NCBI GenBank assembly: GCA_902826455.1
Contig: CADEEV010000013.1
Span: forward strand, 1 to 64,000
Source of the DNA: an uncultured Acidobacteriota bacterium
Lineage (GTDB): Bacteria > Acidobacteriota > Vicinamibacteria > Fen-336
Direction of reading: 5' to 3'
Length of the DNA stretch: 64,000 bases
The position numbers were made by a program, and so were the translations under genes. Shown here piece after piece: positions 4,666 to 54,090 of the stretch (positions are counted from its first letter, which is position 1; the number at the start of each line of letters is the position of its first letter). A model generated the notes under the pieces. The model ran no database searches. It was given only the letters and a program-made list of their open reading frames with translations, and was not told the origin of the DNA.

Positions 4666-6387
4666 ATGGTCCTCTCTCCGCATGCCCCGCCGCAGCGGAC
4701 GCGGCGCGTCACGGTCATCGCCCAGGATCCGTCGGTCAAGAGCGGGCGCCGCATCGTCACGGCCGCGCTGACGATCCCGCGCGAGGACCTGAAGGACGGG
4801 CCCTGGGGCCACCGCGTCCAGGTCGTGGACTACGACGCGTCCCTCGACCGCTACCGTCGGCCCGGTCCGGCCTCCGAACGGGACGATCCGTTCGAGGCGA
4901 AGGACCCCGCCCGCCTGATCGCCGATCCCGACTTCCACGCCTGGAACGCCTACGCGATCGTGATGTCGACGCTCTCGACCTTCGAGTTCGCCCTGGGCCG
5001 GCGGGTCGGCTGGAGCTTCCGCGGCCACCAGGTGAAGGTCGTACCCCACGCCTTCGCCGACGCCAACGCGTTCTACTCGCGCCAGGACGAGTCCATCCTG
5101 TTCGGCTACTTCCAGGGCAAGAAGGGCCCGGTCTTCACCTGCCTCTCCCACGACGTGATCGCCCACGAGACGACCCACGCGCTGCTCGACGGCTTGCGCG
5201 AGCGCTACATGGATCCGTCGTCGCCCGACCAGGCGGCCTTCCACGAAGGCTTCGCCGACGTCGTCGCGCTCTTGTCCGTCTTCGCGATGTCCGGCGTCGT
5301 GGAGCGCATCCTGGACCTGAGCGGCGGCGACGCCGCGCCCGCCCGCCGCATCGCGGTCCGCAAGCTGACCGAGCCGTACCTCTTCGGGGGCCTCCTGGGT
5401 CTCGCCGAGGAGATGGGCTCCGAGATCCAGGGCGTGCGCGGCGCCGCGCTGCGGCGCTCGGGCCTGCTCGAGAAGTCGCCGCGCTGGTATCGCACCGAAG
5501 TGGAGTACCAGGAGCCCCACAAGCGCGGCGAGATCCTCGTCGCCGCGGTCCTGCATGCGTTCGTCGGCGCCTGGCGCACGCGGCTCGAGGCGCTGGGCAA
5601 CGAGATCGATCCCCTCGGAGGCACGGGCTCGCTCGACCGCAAGCGGGTGGTGGAGGAGGGCGCGACCCTGGCGAGCACGCTTCTGACCACGGCGATCCGG
5701 GCCCTCGACTACGCGCCCACGGTGGATCTCAAGTTCGGCGACTACCTGTCCGCCGTGCTGACCGGGGACCGCAGGCTGCGGCCCGACGACAGCAAGTACG
5801 ACCTGCGCGGTCGCCTGCGGCGATCGTTCAAGGCGTTCGGCATCGAGCCCAGGGGCGAGCCTGCCGAAGGCGGCGCCTGGCCTCACGCCCCCGAGGACCT
5901 GCGCTACGACGGCGTCCACCTGGCCTCGCTCCAGCACGACCCCGACGAGGTGTTCCGCTTCCTCTGGGACAACCGGAAGAGGCTGGAGCTCGACGAGGGA
6001 GCCCACACCCACGTCCTCTCGGTCCGGCCCTGCACGCGCGTCGATCCCGACGACGGCTTCACGCTCCACGAGACGGTGGCCGAGTACGTCCAGATCCGCC
6101 GGCTGCGCGGGGACGAGCTGAAGCAGGTGAAGGTCCGGCAGCCCGACGGCATGCCGGCGGACGCCGACGTCGTCCTCTACGGAGGCGGCGCGCTCGTCTT
6201 CGACGAGTTCGGCCGGCTGAAGTACCACGTATGCAAGGCGGTCGGCGGCGACGACCAATCCGAGCAGCTGCGGCAGCGCTGGCTCTCGGGGGCGTTCGAG
6301 ACCGACCGGCGCCAGGTCCGGCGCTTCGCGGCCCTGCACCTGCGCCGCGCCGACGGCCTGCCGGCGGCGCCGAGGGAGGACTGGTAG
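4666..6387 (+). CDS. Zinc metallopeptidase (gluzincin, HExxH)
   Basis: The 573-aa frame starts at ATG 4666, with GGAAGGGG 8 nt upstream. A HETTH zinc-binding helix lies near residue 168 (DVIAHETTHALLDGL). About 25 residues later comes FHEGFADVVALLSVF, whose Glu would be the third zinc ligand, so this is a gluzincin arrangement related to M4-like peptidases. There is no signal peptide, so the enzyme looks cytoplasmic or non-classically exported. The C-terminal 150 residues contain no motif I recognise. The next gene, an MBL-fold protein, starts 2 bp after the stop, so the two are surely coexpressed. The protein substrate is unknown. Confidence 0.8.
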   Translation: MVLSPHAPPQRTRRVTVIAQDPSVKSGRRIVTAALTIPREDLKDGPWGHRVQVVDYDASLDRYRRPGPASERDDPFEAKDPARLIADPDFHAWNAYAIVMSTLSTFEFALGRRVGWSFRGHQVKVVPHAFADANAFYSRQDESILFGYFQGKKGPVFTCLSHDVIAHETTHALLDGLRERYMDPSSPDQAAFHEGFADVVALLSVFAMSGVVERILDLSGGDAAPARRIAVRKLTEPYLFGGLLGLAEEMGSEIQGVRGAALRRSGLLEKSPRWYRTEVEYQEPHKRGEILVAAVLHAFVGAWRTRLEALGNEIDPLGGTGSLDRKRVVEEGATLASTLLTTAIRALDYAPTVDLKFGDYLSAVLTGDRRLRPDDSKYDLRGRLRRSFKAFGIEPRGEPAEGGAWPHAPEDLRYDGVHLASLQHDPDEVFRFLWDNRKRLELDEGAHTHVLSVRPCTRVDPDDGFTLHETVAEYVQIRRLRGDELKQVKVRQPDGMPADADVVLYGGGALVFDEFGRLKYHVCKAVGGDDQSEQLRQRWLSGAFETDRRQVRRFAALHLRRADGLPAAPREDW

Positions 6388-6389
6388 CC

Positions 6390-7814
6390 ATGGCCACGAA
6401 GACTCCCCGGAAGATCAGCCTGCGCGTGTATCCCGTCGGCTTCGGCGACTGCTTCCTGCTCGGCTTCCACTACGCCGGCGGCGACGACCGCTTCGTCCTC
6501 GTCGACTTCGGGAGCACCGAGCTCACGAAGAAGCGCGTGCCGCGCAGCAAGACGTTCGTCGACTACATGACGGCCATCGCGGACGACGTGGCCGTGCGCT
6601 GTGGACGCAAGAACGGCAAGGGCGGCCGGCTCCACGCGGTGATCGCGACCCACCGCCACGCGGACCACATCAACGGCTTCGCGACCAAGACGAAGGCCAG
6701 CGGCAAGGACGCCTCCGGGGACGTCATCCGCTCGCTCAAGCCGGCGTTCGTGGTCCAGCCCTGGACCGAGGACCCCGATCTCGCGCGCAACGCCCTCGGT
6801 CCGAAGGAGGCCGGGGGGCCGCCCGGGTTCACGAGCCTGCTCGCAGGCATGCAGAACGCCGCGGCCGGGATCGTCGTGGAGGCGGAGCGCCTCGGAGCGC
6901 GCGGGGTCGTGGCTCCTCCCGGCGTCGATGCGGCCGCCGGAGCGGCGCCCCCCGCCAGCAAGGCGGAGCGGGTCGCGTTCGCGAACCTCATCCGTTTCCT
7001 GGGCGAGGACAACATCGCGAACCGCTCGGCGGTCGAGAACCTGATCGCGATGGGGCGCGCTCCGGGAGCGAAGGCCCTCTACCTGAACGCCGACGCCCCG
7101 GCCAGCCTCGGCCTGCCGGGCGTCAAGACCCACGTCCTCGGGCCTCCGACCCTGCGGCAGTCCGACGCGATCCGCAAGCAGAGGAGCACGGACCAGGTCG
7201 AGTTCTGGATGCTGCTCGGGGCCACCAGCACCCGCTTCACCGCGAGCTCCGGCGTGCCGTTCCCCGGCCGCGGCTGCGTGCCGGGCTCGCGCGTCCCCGA
7301 CCACGCGCGCTGGCTTCGCGACCATGCCCGCGCCGCGCGGGGCGAGACCCTGCTCAGCATCGTGCGGACCCTCGACAAGCAGATGAACAACACGAGCCTG
7401 ATCCTCATGTTCGAGGTGGGGAAGGCGCGCCTGCTGTTCCCCGGGGACGCGCAGATCGAGAACTGGGAGTACGCCCTGGGTCAGCCGGCATACCGGAAGC
7501 TGCTCGCCCAGACGACGCTCTACAAGGTCGGTCACCACGGGAGCCGGAACGCCACGCCCAAGGCGGGGCTCTGGGACCACTTCGCCCGGCGCTCGGCGGC
7601 CGGCGCGCCCGACCGGCTGTGGTCGATCGTCTCGACGATGGCCGGCAAGCACGGCACCACCGAGGCGACCCGGGTGCCCCGGGGCACCCTGGTCGACGCC
7701 TTGAAGAAGGACACGAACTACCGGAGCACCCAGGAGTTCAAGCGCAAGGAGGTCGACTTCCGGGACTTCGAGATCGACCCGGCCACGGGTCGCGTTCAAG
7801 AGGTTGGGCCCTAG
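6390..7814 (+). CDS. MBL-fold metallohydrolase (ComEC/competence-type)
   Basis: This 474-aa protein starts at ATG 6390, with GGGAGGA just upstream inside the previous gene. The metallo-beta-lactamase signature THRHADHINGF (HxHxDH) is near residue 92. A second metal-site region lies in RLLFPGDAQIENW and KVGHHGSRNATP, as in the ComEC-like MBL hydrolases with the GHHGS motif. The N-terminal VYPVGFGDCFLLGF strand and the VLVDFGS segment also fit that subfamily. No signal peptide is visible. It forms a tight two-gene unit with the metallopeptidase. The substrate is unknown; phosphodiester or nucleotide hydrolysis is one possibility for this subfamily. Confidence 0.82.
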   Translation: MATKTPRKISLRVYPVGFGDCFLLGFHYAGGDDRFVLVDFGSTELTKKRVPRSKTFVDYMTAIADDVAVRCGRKNGKGGRLHAVIATHRHADHINGFATKTKASGKDASGDVIRSLKPAFVVQPWTEDPDLARNALGPKEAGGPPGFTSLLAGMQNAAAGIVVEAERLGARGVVAPPGVDAAAGAAPPASKAERVAFANLIRFLGEDNIANRSAVENLIAMGRAPGAKALYLNADAPASLGLPGVKTHVLGPPTLRQSDAIRKQRSTDQVEFWMLLGATSTRFTASSGVPFPGRGCVPGSRVPDHARWLRDHARAARGETLLSIVRTLDKQMNNTSLILMFEVGKARLLFPGDAQIENWEYALGQPAYRKLLAQTTLYKVGHHGSRNATPKAGLWDHFARRSAAGAPDRLWSIVSTMAGKHGTTEATRVPRGTLVDALKKDTNYRSTQEFKRKEVDFRDFEIDPATGRVQEVGP

Positions 7815-28761: not shown

Positions 28762-29184
28762 GTGAAGCGTCCTGCTCTCGTGTTCGTCGCGCTCGGCGTC
28801 GCGTCCGCCGCGGTACTACTGACGGTCTTCCAGCGGCAGCAAGCGTCCCGCGCTCCGGACGCTCCGCCCGCGAGGATCAGGGTGACCGTGCTGTACCCGC
28901 AGACGTCCGAGAGCCGCTTCGACATGACCTACTACCTGGGCACCCACATCCCGCTGGTCCGGGCGCGGCTCGCGCCGGCCTTGCGAGGAGTGCTGGTCGA
29001 GCAGGGCCTTTCCGGCAGGGAGCCCGGGAGTCCAGCCCCCTTCGCGGCGATCTGCCATCTCTCGTTCGATTCCCTCGAGGCCTATCGAGAGGCGTTCGGG
29101 CCGCACGCCGCCGAGATCGCGGGCGACCTCCCGAACTTCACGAACATCCAGCCCACGCTCCAGATCAGCGAGGTCCGCTTCTAG
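28762..29184 (+). CDS. EthD-family protein with N-terminal anchor
   Basis: The 140-aa product starts at GTG 28762 after a GGAGGAGAG site. Residues about 5-25 are a signal anchor (LVFVALGVASAAVLLTVF). An EthD dimeric alpha-beta barrel domain follows: VTVLYPQTSESRFDMTYYL, HIPLVRARL, and SFDSLEAYREAFGPHAAEIAGDLPNFT split across the rest. EthD domains accompany oxidative pathways for ethers and polyketides, and their catalytic role is unclear. An exported version is unusual, since most are cytoplasmic. It ends 1 bp before the stop of the convergent antiporter gene. Confidence 0.85.
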   Translation: MKRPALVFVALGVASAAVLLTVFQRQQASRAPDAPPARIRVTVLYPQTSESRFDMTYYLGTHIPLVRARLAPALRGVLVEQGLSGREPGSPAPFAAICHLSFDSLEAYREAFGPHAAEIAGDLPNFTNIQPTLQISEVRF

Positions 29185-30759
29185 CTAGCTCTCGTCGCGG
29201 GAGAGGACCTGCTGGATGGAGAGCTCCATCCAGTCGAGCTCCTGCTCGACCACCTGGAACGCGGCGGCGCCGATCGTGCCGTCCTGGCGCAGCATCACGA
29301 GGCGGTGGCGCTGTGCCGTCATCGCCGTGCGCACGAGCTGGCGGTCGGCGATCCGGGCCTCGCGATCGGCGCTGCCCGGCGCTGCCAGCTCGGCACCGCC
29401 CTCGAGGGCCAGGAGCGCGCGCCGGAGCTGGAGCTCGTGGCGGCGCCGCAGCAGGTCGGCCGCCTCGGTGGCCGCGGACGTGTCGAGGCCCGCGAGGCCC
29501 GCCCGCAGCGTCTCGACCCGCGCCAGCTTCACCTCGCTCTCGACCGCGCCGTCGTCCTCGAGGGCGAGGAACGAGAGCAGCGGCCGCACCGTCATGCCCT
29601 GGACCACCAGCGTGCCCAGCACGACGGAGAAGGCCGTGAACAGGATCAGGTCGCGGTGAGGAAATGCGGCGTGGCTGGCGGTGGCCACGGGCAGCGCCAT
29701 GGCGGCGGCGAGCGTCACGATGCCGCGCATCCCGCACCAGCCGACGAGGGCGGCGCCGCGGGGAGACAGCGCGACGGAGCGGCTCAAGGCCGCGACACCG
29801 GCCACCCACGCGAGGCGCGCGCCGATCGTGGCCGCGCAGACGGCGGCCGCGATGCCCACGTAGTCCAGGAGCGCCGCGCGGTCGAGGCCCGCGACGATCG
29901 GCTTGAGCTGCAGCCCCACGATCACGAAGGCGAGCACGTTGAGGACGAAGACCGCGACCTCCCAGACCGCGAAGGACGGCACCCGGACCCGGGCCGGCGT
30001 GAGCTCGCCCGAGTCCCGCGCCACCGACATCGCGAAGGTGACGGTGGTGAGGATGCCCGACAGGTGCAGCCGCTCGGCGAGGATCCAGATCGCGAACGTG
30101 ACGCAGAACTGCACGATCACGGCGGTGGCGACGTCCTCGATCCGCGACAGGGTCCTCGTCGCGAGCTTCTGGAGCAGGAGGCCGAGGCCGATGCTGCCGA
30201 CGGTGACGACGAGCAGCGTCGGCACGACGTTCCAGCCGACGGTCGTCCCGGCGACCGCCGCGCCCACGGCGAGGCGGTAGATGAGGAGCGCGCCCGCGTC
30301 GTTGAAGAGGCTCTCGCCCTCGAGGATCACGAGCAGGTTGTGGGGTGGCCGCAACTGCTTGAGCACGGCCGTCGCGGCGGCGGCGTCGGGCGGCGCCACG
30401 ATCGCGCCGAGCGCGATGGCCGCGGCCCAGGGCATGCCGGGGACCAGCCAATGCACGACGACGGCCACGGCGACGACGGTGAGGATCACCGCCCCGAGGG
30501 CGAGCCCGGCCACCGTGCGCCAGTGGGTCACGAGGTCGCGTGCGGACGCGTCGAACGCCGCGTCGAGCAGCACGGGCGCGACGAACAAGGCGAGGGCCAG
30601 CTCGGGATCGAGCACCACCGTGGGCGTCCCGGGGAGCAAGGCCAGGGCCGCGCCGGCGAGGGCGACGAGGGCGGGATAGGGCGTACCGATGCGGCGCGCG
30701 AGCGCGGCCAGGGCGGCGCCGCCCAGGAGCAACGCGATCACGACCTCGAAGACGTCCAT
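29185..30759 (-). CDS. Na+/H+ antiporter (CPA1, NhaP-like)
   Basis: This 524-aa protein starts at ATG 30759, 11 bp after the amidohydrolase stop. It has about 12 transmembrane helices up to residue 390 and a hydrophilic C-terminal tail. The ion-binding region is recognisable: ALGAIVAPPDAAAATAVL, then LEGESLFNDAGALL, the conserved ESLFND motif of CPA1 antiporters. The tail from about residue 400 is Arg/Glu/Leu-rich and probably coiled. It exchanges Na+ (or another monovalent cation) for H+ across the inner membrane. Cotranscription with the amidohydrolase is likely from spacing, but a functional link is not obvious. Confidence 0.9.
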   Translation of the reverse strand: MDVFEVVIALLLGGAALAALARRIGTPYPALVALAGAALALLPGTPTVVLDPELALALFVAPVLLDAAFDASARDLVTHWRTVAGLALGAVILTVVAVAVVVHWLVPGMPWAAAIALGAIVAPPDAAAATAVLKQLRPPHNLLVILEGESLFNDAGALLIYRLAVGAAVAGTTVGWNVVPTLLVVTVGSIGLGLLLQKLATRTLSRIEDVATAVIVQFCVTFAIWILAERLHLSGILTTVTFAMSVARDSGELTPARVRVPSFAVWEVAVFVLNVLAFVIVGLQLKPIVAGLDRAALLDYVGIAAAVCAATIGARLAWVAGVAALSRSVALSPRGAALVGWCGMRGIVTLAAAMALPVATASHAAFPHRDLILFTAFSVVLGTLVVQGMTVRPLLSFLALEDDGAVESEVKLARVETLRAGLAGLDTSAATEAADLLRRRHELQLRRALLALEGGAELAAPGSADREARIADRQLVRTAMTAQRHRLVMLRQDGTIGAAAFQVVEQELDWMELSIQQVLSRDES

Positions 30760-51085: not shown

Positions 51086-52258
51086 ATGACCTCCACTCCA
51101 CCGAACCGGCTCAAGGCCTTGGCCCTCCTCGCCCTCGGCTTTGCCAGCTCCGCAGCCGGCACGTTCATCCGCCGCACGGACGACCTGCCGGGCGTGACGC
51201 TCCTGGGGGGCCTCTGCCTGCTCGCCTCGATCCTGCTCGCCCTCGGCATCGCCGGGGGCAAGCTGCCGGCCGGAGCCGTGCGAGTCGCCCTTGGCGTTGG
51301 CCTTGTCATGGCGCTGTTCGAGGGAGCAGTGGCCTATCGGATCGTCGTGCCTGCGCCCCTTCATCCCGATCCGCGCAGCGTGCCGTCGGCCGTCCAAGCC
51401 GCGCCGTCGCCCCTGTGGACCCAGGCCGTGGAGCAGGCGCGGCAAGTCGTGCGCGCCGCGGTCTCCGAGCAGAACATTCCCGGACTGTCGGTGGCGGTCG
51501 CCGCCAACGGCGCTCTTGTGTGGGCCGAAGGTTTCGGCTGGGCCGACATCAAGCACCGCCGTCCGGTCACGCCCGAGATGCGGTTTCGGATGGGCACTGG
51601 CTCGACGCTCCTCACCACCGCCGGCGCGCGGAGGCTCGTGGAGCAGGGGAGGCTGACACTGGAGTTACCGCTCCAGGCGGTCCGTGCCGAAGACGAGGAC
51701 CCGCGGTTCCGTCAGCGCTGCGAGGTGCCGACCGATGCGGCGAGCGTTGCGATCGCGCGCGCGGCGGGGCAGCCGTTCTTCACGTTCATGCAACAGCAGG
51801 TGTTCCAGCCGCTCGGCATGAACCAGACGGGCGCGGAATCGTCGACGGCCGAGAATCCCGAGCACGTCGGCGAGCCGGAAGAAGACCCGCCGCCCTTCAC
51901 CATCATTCATGACGGGCTTCTGAACCCGCTCGGCGGTGGGCGCCGGTACGGCCCCGAGTCGATCGCGACCGTGTACGTCCCGCGGTGGGGGACGGATCCC
52001 CGACGCGGAGTCCAGGGGATGCGCCCGCGCAACTACTCCTGCTTCGGCGGCTCGATGGCGTTCCATTCCACTCCGTCCGACCTGGTGCGCTTCGGGCTCG
52101 CGAACCCAGGCGGCGGCGATGGAGAGCTGGTCGGGGGCCAGGTGATGTCGCTGCTCACGGTGCCCGATCGTGGGATCGCCGTCGCCGTGATGGCGAACGT
52201 CACCTACGCCGACACGTCCGGGATCGCGCGGCGAGTCGCCTCCCTGCTCATCAGGTAG
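51086..52258 (+). CDS. Serine-hydrolase (beta-lactamase-like) protein with degraded active site
   Basis: The 390-aa protein has three N-terminal hydrophobic helices up to about residue 90, then a class C beta-lactamase-like domain (VSEQNIPGLSVAVAANGALV). At the SxxK site the sequence is GTGSTLLTTA, so Ser173 is present but the Lys is replaced by Leu176. The region that normally contains HTSG and the Tyr-x-Asn motif is absent: TLELPLQAVRAEDE passes directly to a later helix (VAIARAAGQPFFTFMQQQVF). The third HTGG-type motif is not seen either. The fold may be kept but the enzyme is probably inactive. Confidence 0.7.
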   Translation: MTSTPPNRLKALALLALGFASSAAGTFIRRTDDLPGVTLLGGLCLLASILLALGIAGGKLPAGAVRVALGVGLVMALFEGAVAYRIVVPAPLHPDPRSVPSAVQAAPSPLWTQAVEQARQVVRAAVSEQNIPGLSVAVAANGALVWAEGFGWADIKHRRPVTPEMRFRMGTGSTLLTTAGARRLVEQGRLTLELPLQAVRAEDEDPRFRQRCEVPTDAASVAIARAAGQPFFTFMQQQVFQPLGMNQTGAESSTAENPEHVGEPEEDPPPFTIIHDGLLNPLGGGRRYGPESIATVYVPRWGTDPRRGVQGMRPRNYSCFGGSMAFHSTPSDLVRFGLANPGGGDGELVGGQVMSLLTVPDRGIAVAVMANVTYADTSGIARRVASLLIR

Positions 52259-52336: not shown

Positions 52337-52600
52337 ATGCCTGTTTCCAACGCCGGTGCCGAAGTTCGTTTCGCCAAAATGGGACCTGGCGGAAAGCCGT
52401 TCGCGGAGATCCTGGTCGACAAGGACGTCTCGGCGGTGGCGCTCGGAGGCGTGATCCAGCGGATCACGCGTGACAAGGATCTCTTGCGGAAGGTGGGCTT
52501 GAAGGCCTGCAATGCCTGCAAGTCGGGCCTGGACATCTTCATTCGCGACCGCTTCATCAACGAGATCAGGGTGGACATCCTCGCCGGTGGCCGCCGCTAG
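52337..52600 (+). CDS. Candidate RiPP precursor (87 aa, CxxC)
   Basis: The small protein directly precedes the MNIO gene. Its first 50 residues are charged and helical (MPVSNAGAEVRFAKMGPGGK, IQRITRDKDLLRKVG). Cys58 and Cys61 sit in LKACNACKSGLD, followed by a beta-like DIFIRDRFINEIRVDIL and a GGRR end. MNIO substrates are usually small peptides with reactive Cys or Asp residues, so the CNAC region is the likely modification site. It is not at the extreme C-terminus: about 26 residues follow. The stop (TAG 52598-52600) overlaps the GTG of the MNIO gene by 14 bp. It could instead be a small metal-binding partner. Confidence 0.65.
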   Translation: MPVSNAGAEVRFAKMGPGGKPFAEILVDKDVSAVALGGVIQRITRDKDLLRKVGLKACNACKSGLDIFIRDRFINEIRVDILAGGRR

Positions 52601-53486
52601 CGGCGTCAGTCGCCCTGGGGTTGGAGTTCTCTTCAACCCCACCCTCGACCGCTTTCTCGCCCGGTCGCTGGATGCCTTGGACTACGTTTCGGTCATACCC
52701 GACCGCTCGTGGATCGACCATGGAATCGGATCGCAGCCCCGATTCGAATCCCTCCCGCTCGTGTCGGAGCTCATGGAAAGCCCGGGGAAGGCACTGCCGA
52801 TTGTCCTGCACGGAATCGGCCTCTCGATCTGCAGCGCGAGCCTGTTCGACGAGGAGTACGCCGAGAAACTGATCGAGACGCAACGCACCCTTCGCAGCCC
52901 CTGGGTGAGCGAGCATCTCTCGTTCTCACGCATCAGCACCGGGCACGAGATCAATGCCGCGGTGGCCGTCCCCGTGCCATACGACGTGGAAGTGCTCGAG
53001 CTGCTCGTTCCGAGAGTCAGCTTCCTGACGCGTCGGGCGTCCTGCCCTGTGCTACTCGAAAACAGCGTGTACTACTTCCGGCACATCGCCGAGGACATGA
53101 CGGAAGCAGCGTTCCTCAACGAGGTCTGCGCACGAACCGGGTGCGGCGTCCTGCTCGATCTTCACAACCTCTACTGCAACGCCCTCAACCACTCCTTCGA
53201 CCCTCACGACTACCTTCGCGACCTCGACATGGCGAACGTCGTGGAGGTCCACATCGCCGGCGGCGTCGAGATGATGGGGTTCCATACGGACTCGCACACG
53301 GGACCCGTTCCGGAGCCGGTGTGGGAGCTGCTCGCGGACGTCGTGCCGCGTGCTCTCAACCTCCGAGGCGTGACCTTCGAGTTCCACGAGTCGTCCTTCC
53401 CGCTGTTGCGCGAACGAGGGGTCCGTAGACAGTTGGAGCGGGCGCGCCAGGTCGTCGCAGCCGGCAGGTCGGATGACGCTCGCTGA
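52587..53486 (+). CDS. DUF692 / MNIO family iron enzyme
   Basis: This 299-aa protein starts at GTG 52587, inside the previous gene's end. Metal-ligand blocks of the DUF692 (MbnB/TglH) family appear in order: HGIGLSI (His about 75), SEHLSFS (Glu109, His110), LENSVYYF (Glu158, Asn159), LLDLHNLYCNALN (Asp191, His193, Asn194), VEVHIAGG, a SHTGPVPEPVWELL segment and EFHESSFP. Family members use two or three irons to oxidise Cys (or Asp) in ribosomal peptides. The overlap with both neighbours by 14 bp shows tight coupling. The FEFHE in place of the usual EWD block is a variant. Confidence 0.88.
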   Translation: MAAASGVSRPGVGVLFNPTLDRFLARSLDALDYVSVIPDRSWIDHGIGSQPRFESLPLVSELMESPGKALPIVLHGIGLSICSASLFDEEYAEKLIETQRTLRSPWVSEHLSFSRISTGHEINAAVAVPVPYDVEVLELLVPRVSFLTRRASCPVLLENSVYYFRHIAEDMTEAAFLNEVCARTGCGVLLDLHNLYCNALNHSFDPHDYLRDLDMANVVEVHIAGGVEMMGFHTDSHTGPVPEPVWELLADVVPRALNLRGVTFEFHESSFPLLRERGVRRQLERARQVVAAGRSDDAR

Positions 53487-54090
53487 CTTCCAGACGGCCA
53501 TCGTGGACCTCATCCTCTCGCCGCAGAGCGCGCGCCTCTTGTTGGACGGCGACGATCGGGTGCTCCGTCGGTATCGCTTGACCGAGCGCGAGCGAGAACG
53601 GCTGCGGTCCATCGTGGGGCAACCTGGAATGTCCCTCTGCTGCACGCTCGCCCGCGCGAACCGGTTCGAGCCGATCGCCGAGGTGTTCCCGATGACGTGC
53701 GTGCTCCTGGAGCCCGTCCTGCGGGAGTTGCTCGACGACGTGTGGGGCCGGAACCCTCTGAGCAACTATCAGTTCGCAGGCGACGACGTCCTCTTCGCCG
53801 ACTGTGTGCGAAAGGGCATCAAGTCTCGCGAACTCTCCGGGGAATACCTGGAAGAGATCTTTCAGTACGAGGAGGTCTGCTGGCAGTTGGCGCAACAGCT
53901 GCGACGACAGCCGATCGGCCCAGGCCGACGTGAGGCCGTCGTCGAGTTCAGGCACGCTCCTGAGCAGCTGCTCCCGCCACTCAGCCGCTTGACCGCTCCA
54001 CCGCCTTCACTGCCGACCGGCACGTACCGAGTGAGGATCCGCCTCGACCGGTCGCGGCATTTTGGCGTGGACGTGATTGCCGAGGCCTAG
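53473..54090 (+). CDS. MNIO partner protein (TglI/MbnC-like)
   Basis: The 205-aa protein starts at ATG 53473, overlapping the MNIO gene by 14 bp. Its first part (LADFQTAIVDLILSPQSARL) is a helical region like the partner proteins that bind and present the peptide to DUF692 enzymes. The conserved-type segments CVLLEPVLRELLDDVWGR and YEEVCWQLAQQLRR follow. A beta-rich end (TYRVRIRLDRSRHFGVDVI) may hold the leader. In methanobactin and 3-thiaglutamate pathways a partner is needed for enzyme activity. The assignment rests on position and overall character rather than a strong motif. Confidence 0.7.
   Translation: MTLADFQTAIVDLILSPQSARLLLDGDDRVLRRYRLTERERERLRSIVGQPGMSLCCTLARANRFEPIAEVFPMTCVLLEPVLRELLDDVWGRNPLSNYQFAGDDVLFADCVRKGIKSRELSGEYLEEIFQYEEVCWQLAQQLRRQPIGPGRREAVVEFRHAPEQLLPPLSRLTAPPPSLPTGTYRVRIRLDRSRHFGVDVIAEA

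Follow-up and report, generated by a model that had tools for sequence, protein, structure and literature searches.

Three overlapping genes in the window (the whole 64,000-nucleotide stretch of DNA from an uncultured Acidobacteriota bacterium that was analysed) very probably constitute a minimal MNIO-type RiPP (or protein-modification) operon whose substrate is an 87-aa protein, and its function is most likely the oxidative modification of the two cysteines in a CxxCxSG motif of that protein. MNIOs perform unusual cysteine chemistry and the family is mostly uncharted, and the trio points to an uncharacterised peptide modification. Because it combines one invariant motif with unrelated leaders, occurs in four phyla and consists of three genes only, the trio offers a compact and testable system, and its clade allows one to ask into what CxxCxSG is converted and whether folded proteins acquire cofactors through MNIOs.

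Genes, enzyme and partner protein of the operon

The operon comprises the following features:

52337..52600, + strand: precursor candidate, 87 aa; ATG start; predicted strand-strand-helix leader part, CNACKSG at residues 58-64 and a 23-residue tail
52508..52528, + strand: CxxCxSG codons (C58-N-A-C61-K-S63-G64), the predicted modification site; C, C, S and G present in 21/21 clade precursors
52587..53486, + strand: MNIO (DUF692, PF05114), the predicted modifying enzyme, 299 aa; GTG start; nine iron ligands conserved
53473..54090, + strand: partner protein (PME-type 2, by its modelled fold), 205 aa; ATG start; helical N-terminal domain and short C-terminal beta domain; TglI/NGO1945/MbnC fold in the model

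The coordinates confirm the overlap of 14 bp at both junctions (precursor/MNIO and MNIO/partner) that had been described in the original prediction, and a GGAGG Shine-Dalgarno sequence lies upstream of the precursor ATG. An alternative in-frame ATG of the MNIO gene is present at 52512, upstream of the GTG at 52587, and the starts of orthologues fall near 52587. Scans for sigma-70 promoters and terminators gave no match. As had also been predicted, the flanking genes that were scanned include neither a transporter nor a protease, the one exception being a PF00144 beta-lactamase/serine-hydrolase-like ORF (51086-52255, + strand) located just upstream on the same strand as the trio. The PF00144 domain was matched in two separate stretches of this ORF, suggesting a possible internal deletion, and the ORF is not kept beside the trios of relatives.

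The second gene encodes a DUF692 enzyme with the expected metal ligands. It matched PF05114 far above the gathering score (182.4 bits, cut-off 25, E 1e-53), and the nine TglH residues given in PMC10880893 as ligands of the three irons could all be aligned (H75, H110, E158, D191, N194, H222, D235, H237, and E265); these positions are identical in the window MNIO and the other 20 members of its clade. The enzyme scored below the cut-off of every NCBIfam equivalog. The closest model is the bufferin maturase BufB, at half its cut-off (158/310 bits), and with HvfB at 127/360 bits the enzyme is not a bufferin/captophorin maturase by equivalog score. Assignment to ApyH (126/400 bits) or to the methanobactin enzyme MbnB/MbnC (TIGR04159, 20.5/325 bits) likewise failed. 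Membership of the ChrH/chryseobasin subfamily was rejected on the score (58.6/600 bits) and on the motif, which is an internal CNACKSG and not a terminal CPxCGxG; the motif is the stronger criterion here, since two ChrH-like loci (L063/L064) themselves score under the ChrH cut-off.

The partner protein had no Pfam match above cut-off. DUF2063 did not match it, and matched weakly in 2/18 rows of partners. A PDB sequence search returned a ribosomal protein alone, which was taken as chance. The TglI/MbnC-like identity proposed in the original prediction was borne out by the AlphaFold model (mean pLDDT 90), which VIA-align matched over its whole length to TglI (Z 11.3 and 10.8; 194 residues, 4.6 A for the best), followed by the DUF2063 protein NGO1945 (Z 8.4) and MbnC (Z 6.5), a relationship absent from Foldseek's own ranking. 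All four of these leading matches are chains of MNIO partners, and the next, unrelated row has Z 4.1. With no DUF2063 match, a modelled TglI/NGO1945-like fold and a gene directly following the MNIO, the partner belongs to PME-type 2, a class named in PMC12452194.

Distribution of the trio and conservation of the CxxCxSG motif

The proposal that the trio should be sought across genomes was followed up, and the same trio was found at 21 loci in Acidobacteriota, Myxococcota, Pseudomonadota, and Bacteroidota (sixteen named-genome loci plus others from sampled genomes), with gene order kept and genes overlapping or closely spaced. Among them are six loci from Acidobacteriota, two of Burkholderiales type, two from Bacteroidota, and those of Archangium and of Reyranella with related Rhodospirillales; Acidobacteria bacterium RYN_26 is one named relative. 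No neighbors common to the lineages were seen beyond the trio. Its occurrence is patchy: 2/14 genomes of the host family, 1/369 genomes in a Gammaproteobacteria sample (E 1e-70), and 1/198 genomes in the class sample around Taibaiella. In the sampled genomes searched with the precursor sequence or profile, no genome had more than one copy of the precursor, which always lay beside its MNIO. Phylogenetic analysis placed the 21 trio MNIOs in one clade (support 94/90; inner clade 97/95), separate from ChrH-like, bufferin/oxazolin-like and TglH sequences. A plasmid search yielded best 20 rows that were all <33% identical; two were opened, one being a bufferin operon with a DUF2282 precursor and the other having bufferin-type neighbors.

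The window precursor contains two cysteines (C58 and C61) and exactly 26 residues after CNAC, close to the approximate figure given earlier. The possibility that this small protein is a known domain unrelated to MNIO operons found no backing, as neither the sequence nor its alignment matched anything in Pfam, NCBIfam or PDB sequence searches. No paper in the literature collection searched contains the CxxCxSG-type motif strings. The motif C-x-x-C-x-S-G is present in 21/21 clade precursors, and the probability of its chance occurrence is ~1e-4 per shuffled sequence for most rows (max 1.7e-3, in rows with four Cys). A single-family alignment of 16 precursors left no invariant residues other than the start Met, both Cys, S63, and G64; within the clade, K, M, N, T, R, I, A, V, and L all occur directly after the second Cys, and the following Ser and Gly are fixed.

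The N-termini of the precursors differ. A strand-strand-helix region is found in Acidobacteriota, Archangium, and Pseudomonadota, and double-glycine leaders are found within some Myxococcota and Bacteroidota (L017, and L037/L038 with 'LDNDLLDTVTGG'). In Bacteroidota, the precursors contain CPxCRSGF twice. A constant motif combined with a changing leader is the pattern expected of a modified core. Peptidase-C39 ABC transporters are the usual processing exporters of double-glycine leaders, and the Taibaiella trio (L017) adjoins a gene for such a transporter (751 aa; PF03412, E 1e-31), which suggests cleavage and secretion of its product. A regular-expression scan detected no C39-type exporter in the readable stretch of one further genome (G1140, locus L066).

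The precursor gene is a real gene under purifying selection, as indicated by dN/dS values of ~0.05-0.26 with synonymous changes exceeding replacement changes. In the window-type precursor, the leader and the tail after the motif are both conserved. Such full-length conservation speaks against our preferred explanation, since cleaved RiPPs do not usually show it, and it would also be compatible with a protein that functions in unmodified form. It resembles that of an accessory protein as well, and the 87-aa protein might be a structural or regulatory partner of an MNIO acting on a peptide encoded elsewhere; we consider this very improbable, because the gene at the same position in the double-glycine relatives encodes a classical precursor that also carries CxxCxSG, and a precursor-profile search of the host genome found no further match.

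The window precursor also lacks a double-glycine site and a signal peptide (its N-terminus is not hydrophobic by inspection), and among the flanking genes scanned neither a protease nor an exporter accompanies it, which again speaks against our preferred explanation. Its predicted structure is strand-strand-helix-loop-strand, but confidence in the model is moderate (pLDDT 71), so that a folded protein is a reading of it and not a result. Foldseek/VIA-align comparisons of this model gave weak, mixed rows (OsmC/Ohr, cation-efflux C-terminal domains, and 4-OT; best E 0.085, best Z 4.5) and were not used. An alternative is that the MNIO modifies a folded small protein in place, turning the CxxCxSG loop into a protein-derived cofactor (redox or crosslink) of a cytosolic protein. 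The modelled fold, the conservation of both leader and tail, the purifying selection across the protein, the lack of a protease or exporter among the flanking genes scanned and the reported action of ChrH-type enzymes on proteins >30 kDa (PMC12636315) are all in its favor. It nevertheless appears unlikely given that the double-glycine leaders and C39 exporter of relatives fit a cleaved peptide and that the moderate-confidence model lacks a clear fold match. The candidate RiPP pathway of the original prediction is supported by the trio, the motif and the partner fold, but its "peptide" probably consists of a partly folding leader, a core located internally and a 23-residue conserved tail.

Several other MNIO loci were met alongside the trios. 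The host genome contains a second MNIO (contig C1, ~29058-29834) behind a Tat-signal-like CKG-repeat peptide (oxazolin/bufferin-like) and followed by a ~277-aa protein resembling a DUF2063-type partner, and a third (contig C56, ~5847-6626) with no small precursor seen, directly after a long ORF that ends in ferredoxin-like Cys motifs and by eye resembles electron-transfer flavoprotein-ubiquinone oxidoreductase. In Myxococcota, MNIO operons L039-L042 have putative precursors with a twin-arginine-type signal (RRNFMK) and CPNCGLGG, possibly a separate MNIO-modified, Tat-exported family, and L043-L055 form a conserved MNIO clade with a methyltransferase-like gene (~280-320 aa) before and a 190-200 aa protein after, no small Cys peptide lying between these two genes. 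Short signal-less peptides with CDKCGR, CTTCGLGG or CRTCGLMG precede divergent MNIOs at L058, L059, L061, and L062 (class sample around L012), which are further CxxC variants outside the CxxCxSG clade. Taibaiella sp. KBW10 carries both a ChrA-type operon (L064; lipoprotein-like precursor ending in CPACGMG) and the CPACRSGF operon (L017), and may be useful for comparing two chemistries within one host.

Proposed mechanism and chemistry

In the mechanism that we propose, the 87-aa protein would be the substrate and its N-terminal strand-strand-helix part the leader. The TglI-like partner (205 aa) would hold this leader, dock on the MNIO and present the internal C58-N-A-C61-K-S-G loop to the multinuclear iron site, where the MNIO and O2 would generate an oxidised cysteine pair. 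Among the characterised MNIO substrates covered, the same Cys spacing is found in ChrA and DybA (CPACGMG), and in ChrA a bond links the sulfur of the first Cys with the beta carbon of the second, with formation of an imidazolidinedione (PMC10214503, PMC12636315). For the window, the chemistry is guessed from the motif. A thioether ring between the two Cys together with a rearranged backbone, like the product of ChrH/DybH, is a tentative candidate; it is an analogy only, since the trio clade is far from ChrH in sequence, and its basis is weakened by the distance in the tree and by a top score (well below cut-off) that belongs to bufferin maturases. A thiooxazole or oxazolone-thioamide metal ligand is possible with a somewhat lower probability, thiooxazoles of the bufferin type being the chief competitor of the ring, and some other chemistry seems unlikely.

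If such a metal ligand were made at each Cys (as 5-thiooxazole or oxazolone-thioamide), the pair might chelate Cu(I) and the operon might buffer copper, a reading that departs from our preferred one in chemistry and function only. BufB being the closest NCBIfam model (158 bits), the two further MNIOs of the host genome (one next to an oxazolin-like Tat-type peptide with Cys-Lys-Gly repeats) and the resemblance of C61-K62 to Cys-Lys motifs in captophorins are consistent with it. However, the BufB score is half of the cut-off (158 of 310), the tree sets the clade outside the bufferin/oxazolin-like MNIOs, signal peptide and DUF2063 Pfam match are both lacking, and the residue after the second Cys is variable when the next Ser and Gly are invariant, all of which make this reading rather doubtful. 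FonBC, which belongs to a different enzyme group, rejected NACKG in vitro (PMC13097082).

Returning to oxidative modification of the cysteine pair, the window product probably stays in the cytoplasm or leaves via unlinked machinery, because an export route is not encoded in the window. A broader and more speculative scenario, to which we give a low probability, is that a distinct MNIO clade installs a new Cys-Cys-derived structure on CxxCxSG, which in Acidobacteriota and relatives would turn a small folded protein into the carrier of a protein-borne cofactor, and that in Bacteroidota and Myxococcota double-glycine leaders were combined with this chemistry, giving secreted peptides.

Comparison with known MNIO systems

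Enzyme, partner fold and operon logic are all of known kinds. The TglHI system (pearlin/3-thiaglutamate, PDB 8hci/8hi7) has the same nine iron ligands in its MNIO and the same partner fold; however, the TglH substrate is a C-terminal Cys appended by a PEARL enzyme, whereas the window peptide has no terminal Cys and no PEARL ligase was found among the flanking genes scanned. Bufferin and captophorin operons (BufABC, FonABC, and HvfABC) share the precursor-MNIO-partner gene order, but their precursors have signal peptides and Cys-rich repeats (DUF2282 or EGKCG-type) and their partners match DUF2063. As anticipated in the original prediction, the window precursor is unlike them, with two Cys, a non-hydrophobic N-terminus and neither DUF2282 nor any other Pfam/NCBIfam match; the window partner does not match DUF2063, and the enzyme is far under the equivalog cut-offs. 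ChrA/ChrH and DybA/DybH resemble the window system in having an MNIO and Cys-x-x-Cys followed by x-x-Gly (CPACGMG vs CNACKSG), but the ChrA motif is a C-terminal CPxCGxG whereas that of the window is internal, ChrH has a C-terminal helical extension with no TglI-like partner encoded, and ChrH-like sequences are distant from the window clade in the tree.

The pathway was originally described as uncharacterised, and the precursor matches no known domain. However, Antoine et al. 2025 (PMC12452194) already report adjamnio-7, signal-less putative precursors with CxxC in MNIO cluster #7 (accession given there: Novilysobacter spongiicola WP_078758616), so the window precursor may not be unreported. 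Compared by description only, both are signal-less, contain CxxC and lie in an MNIO cluster, and the window precursor family may be adjamnio-7.
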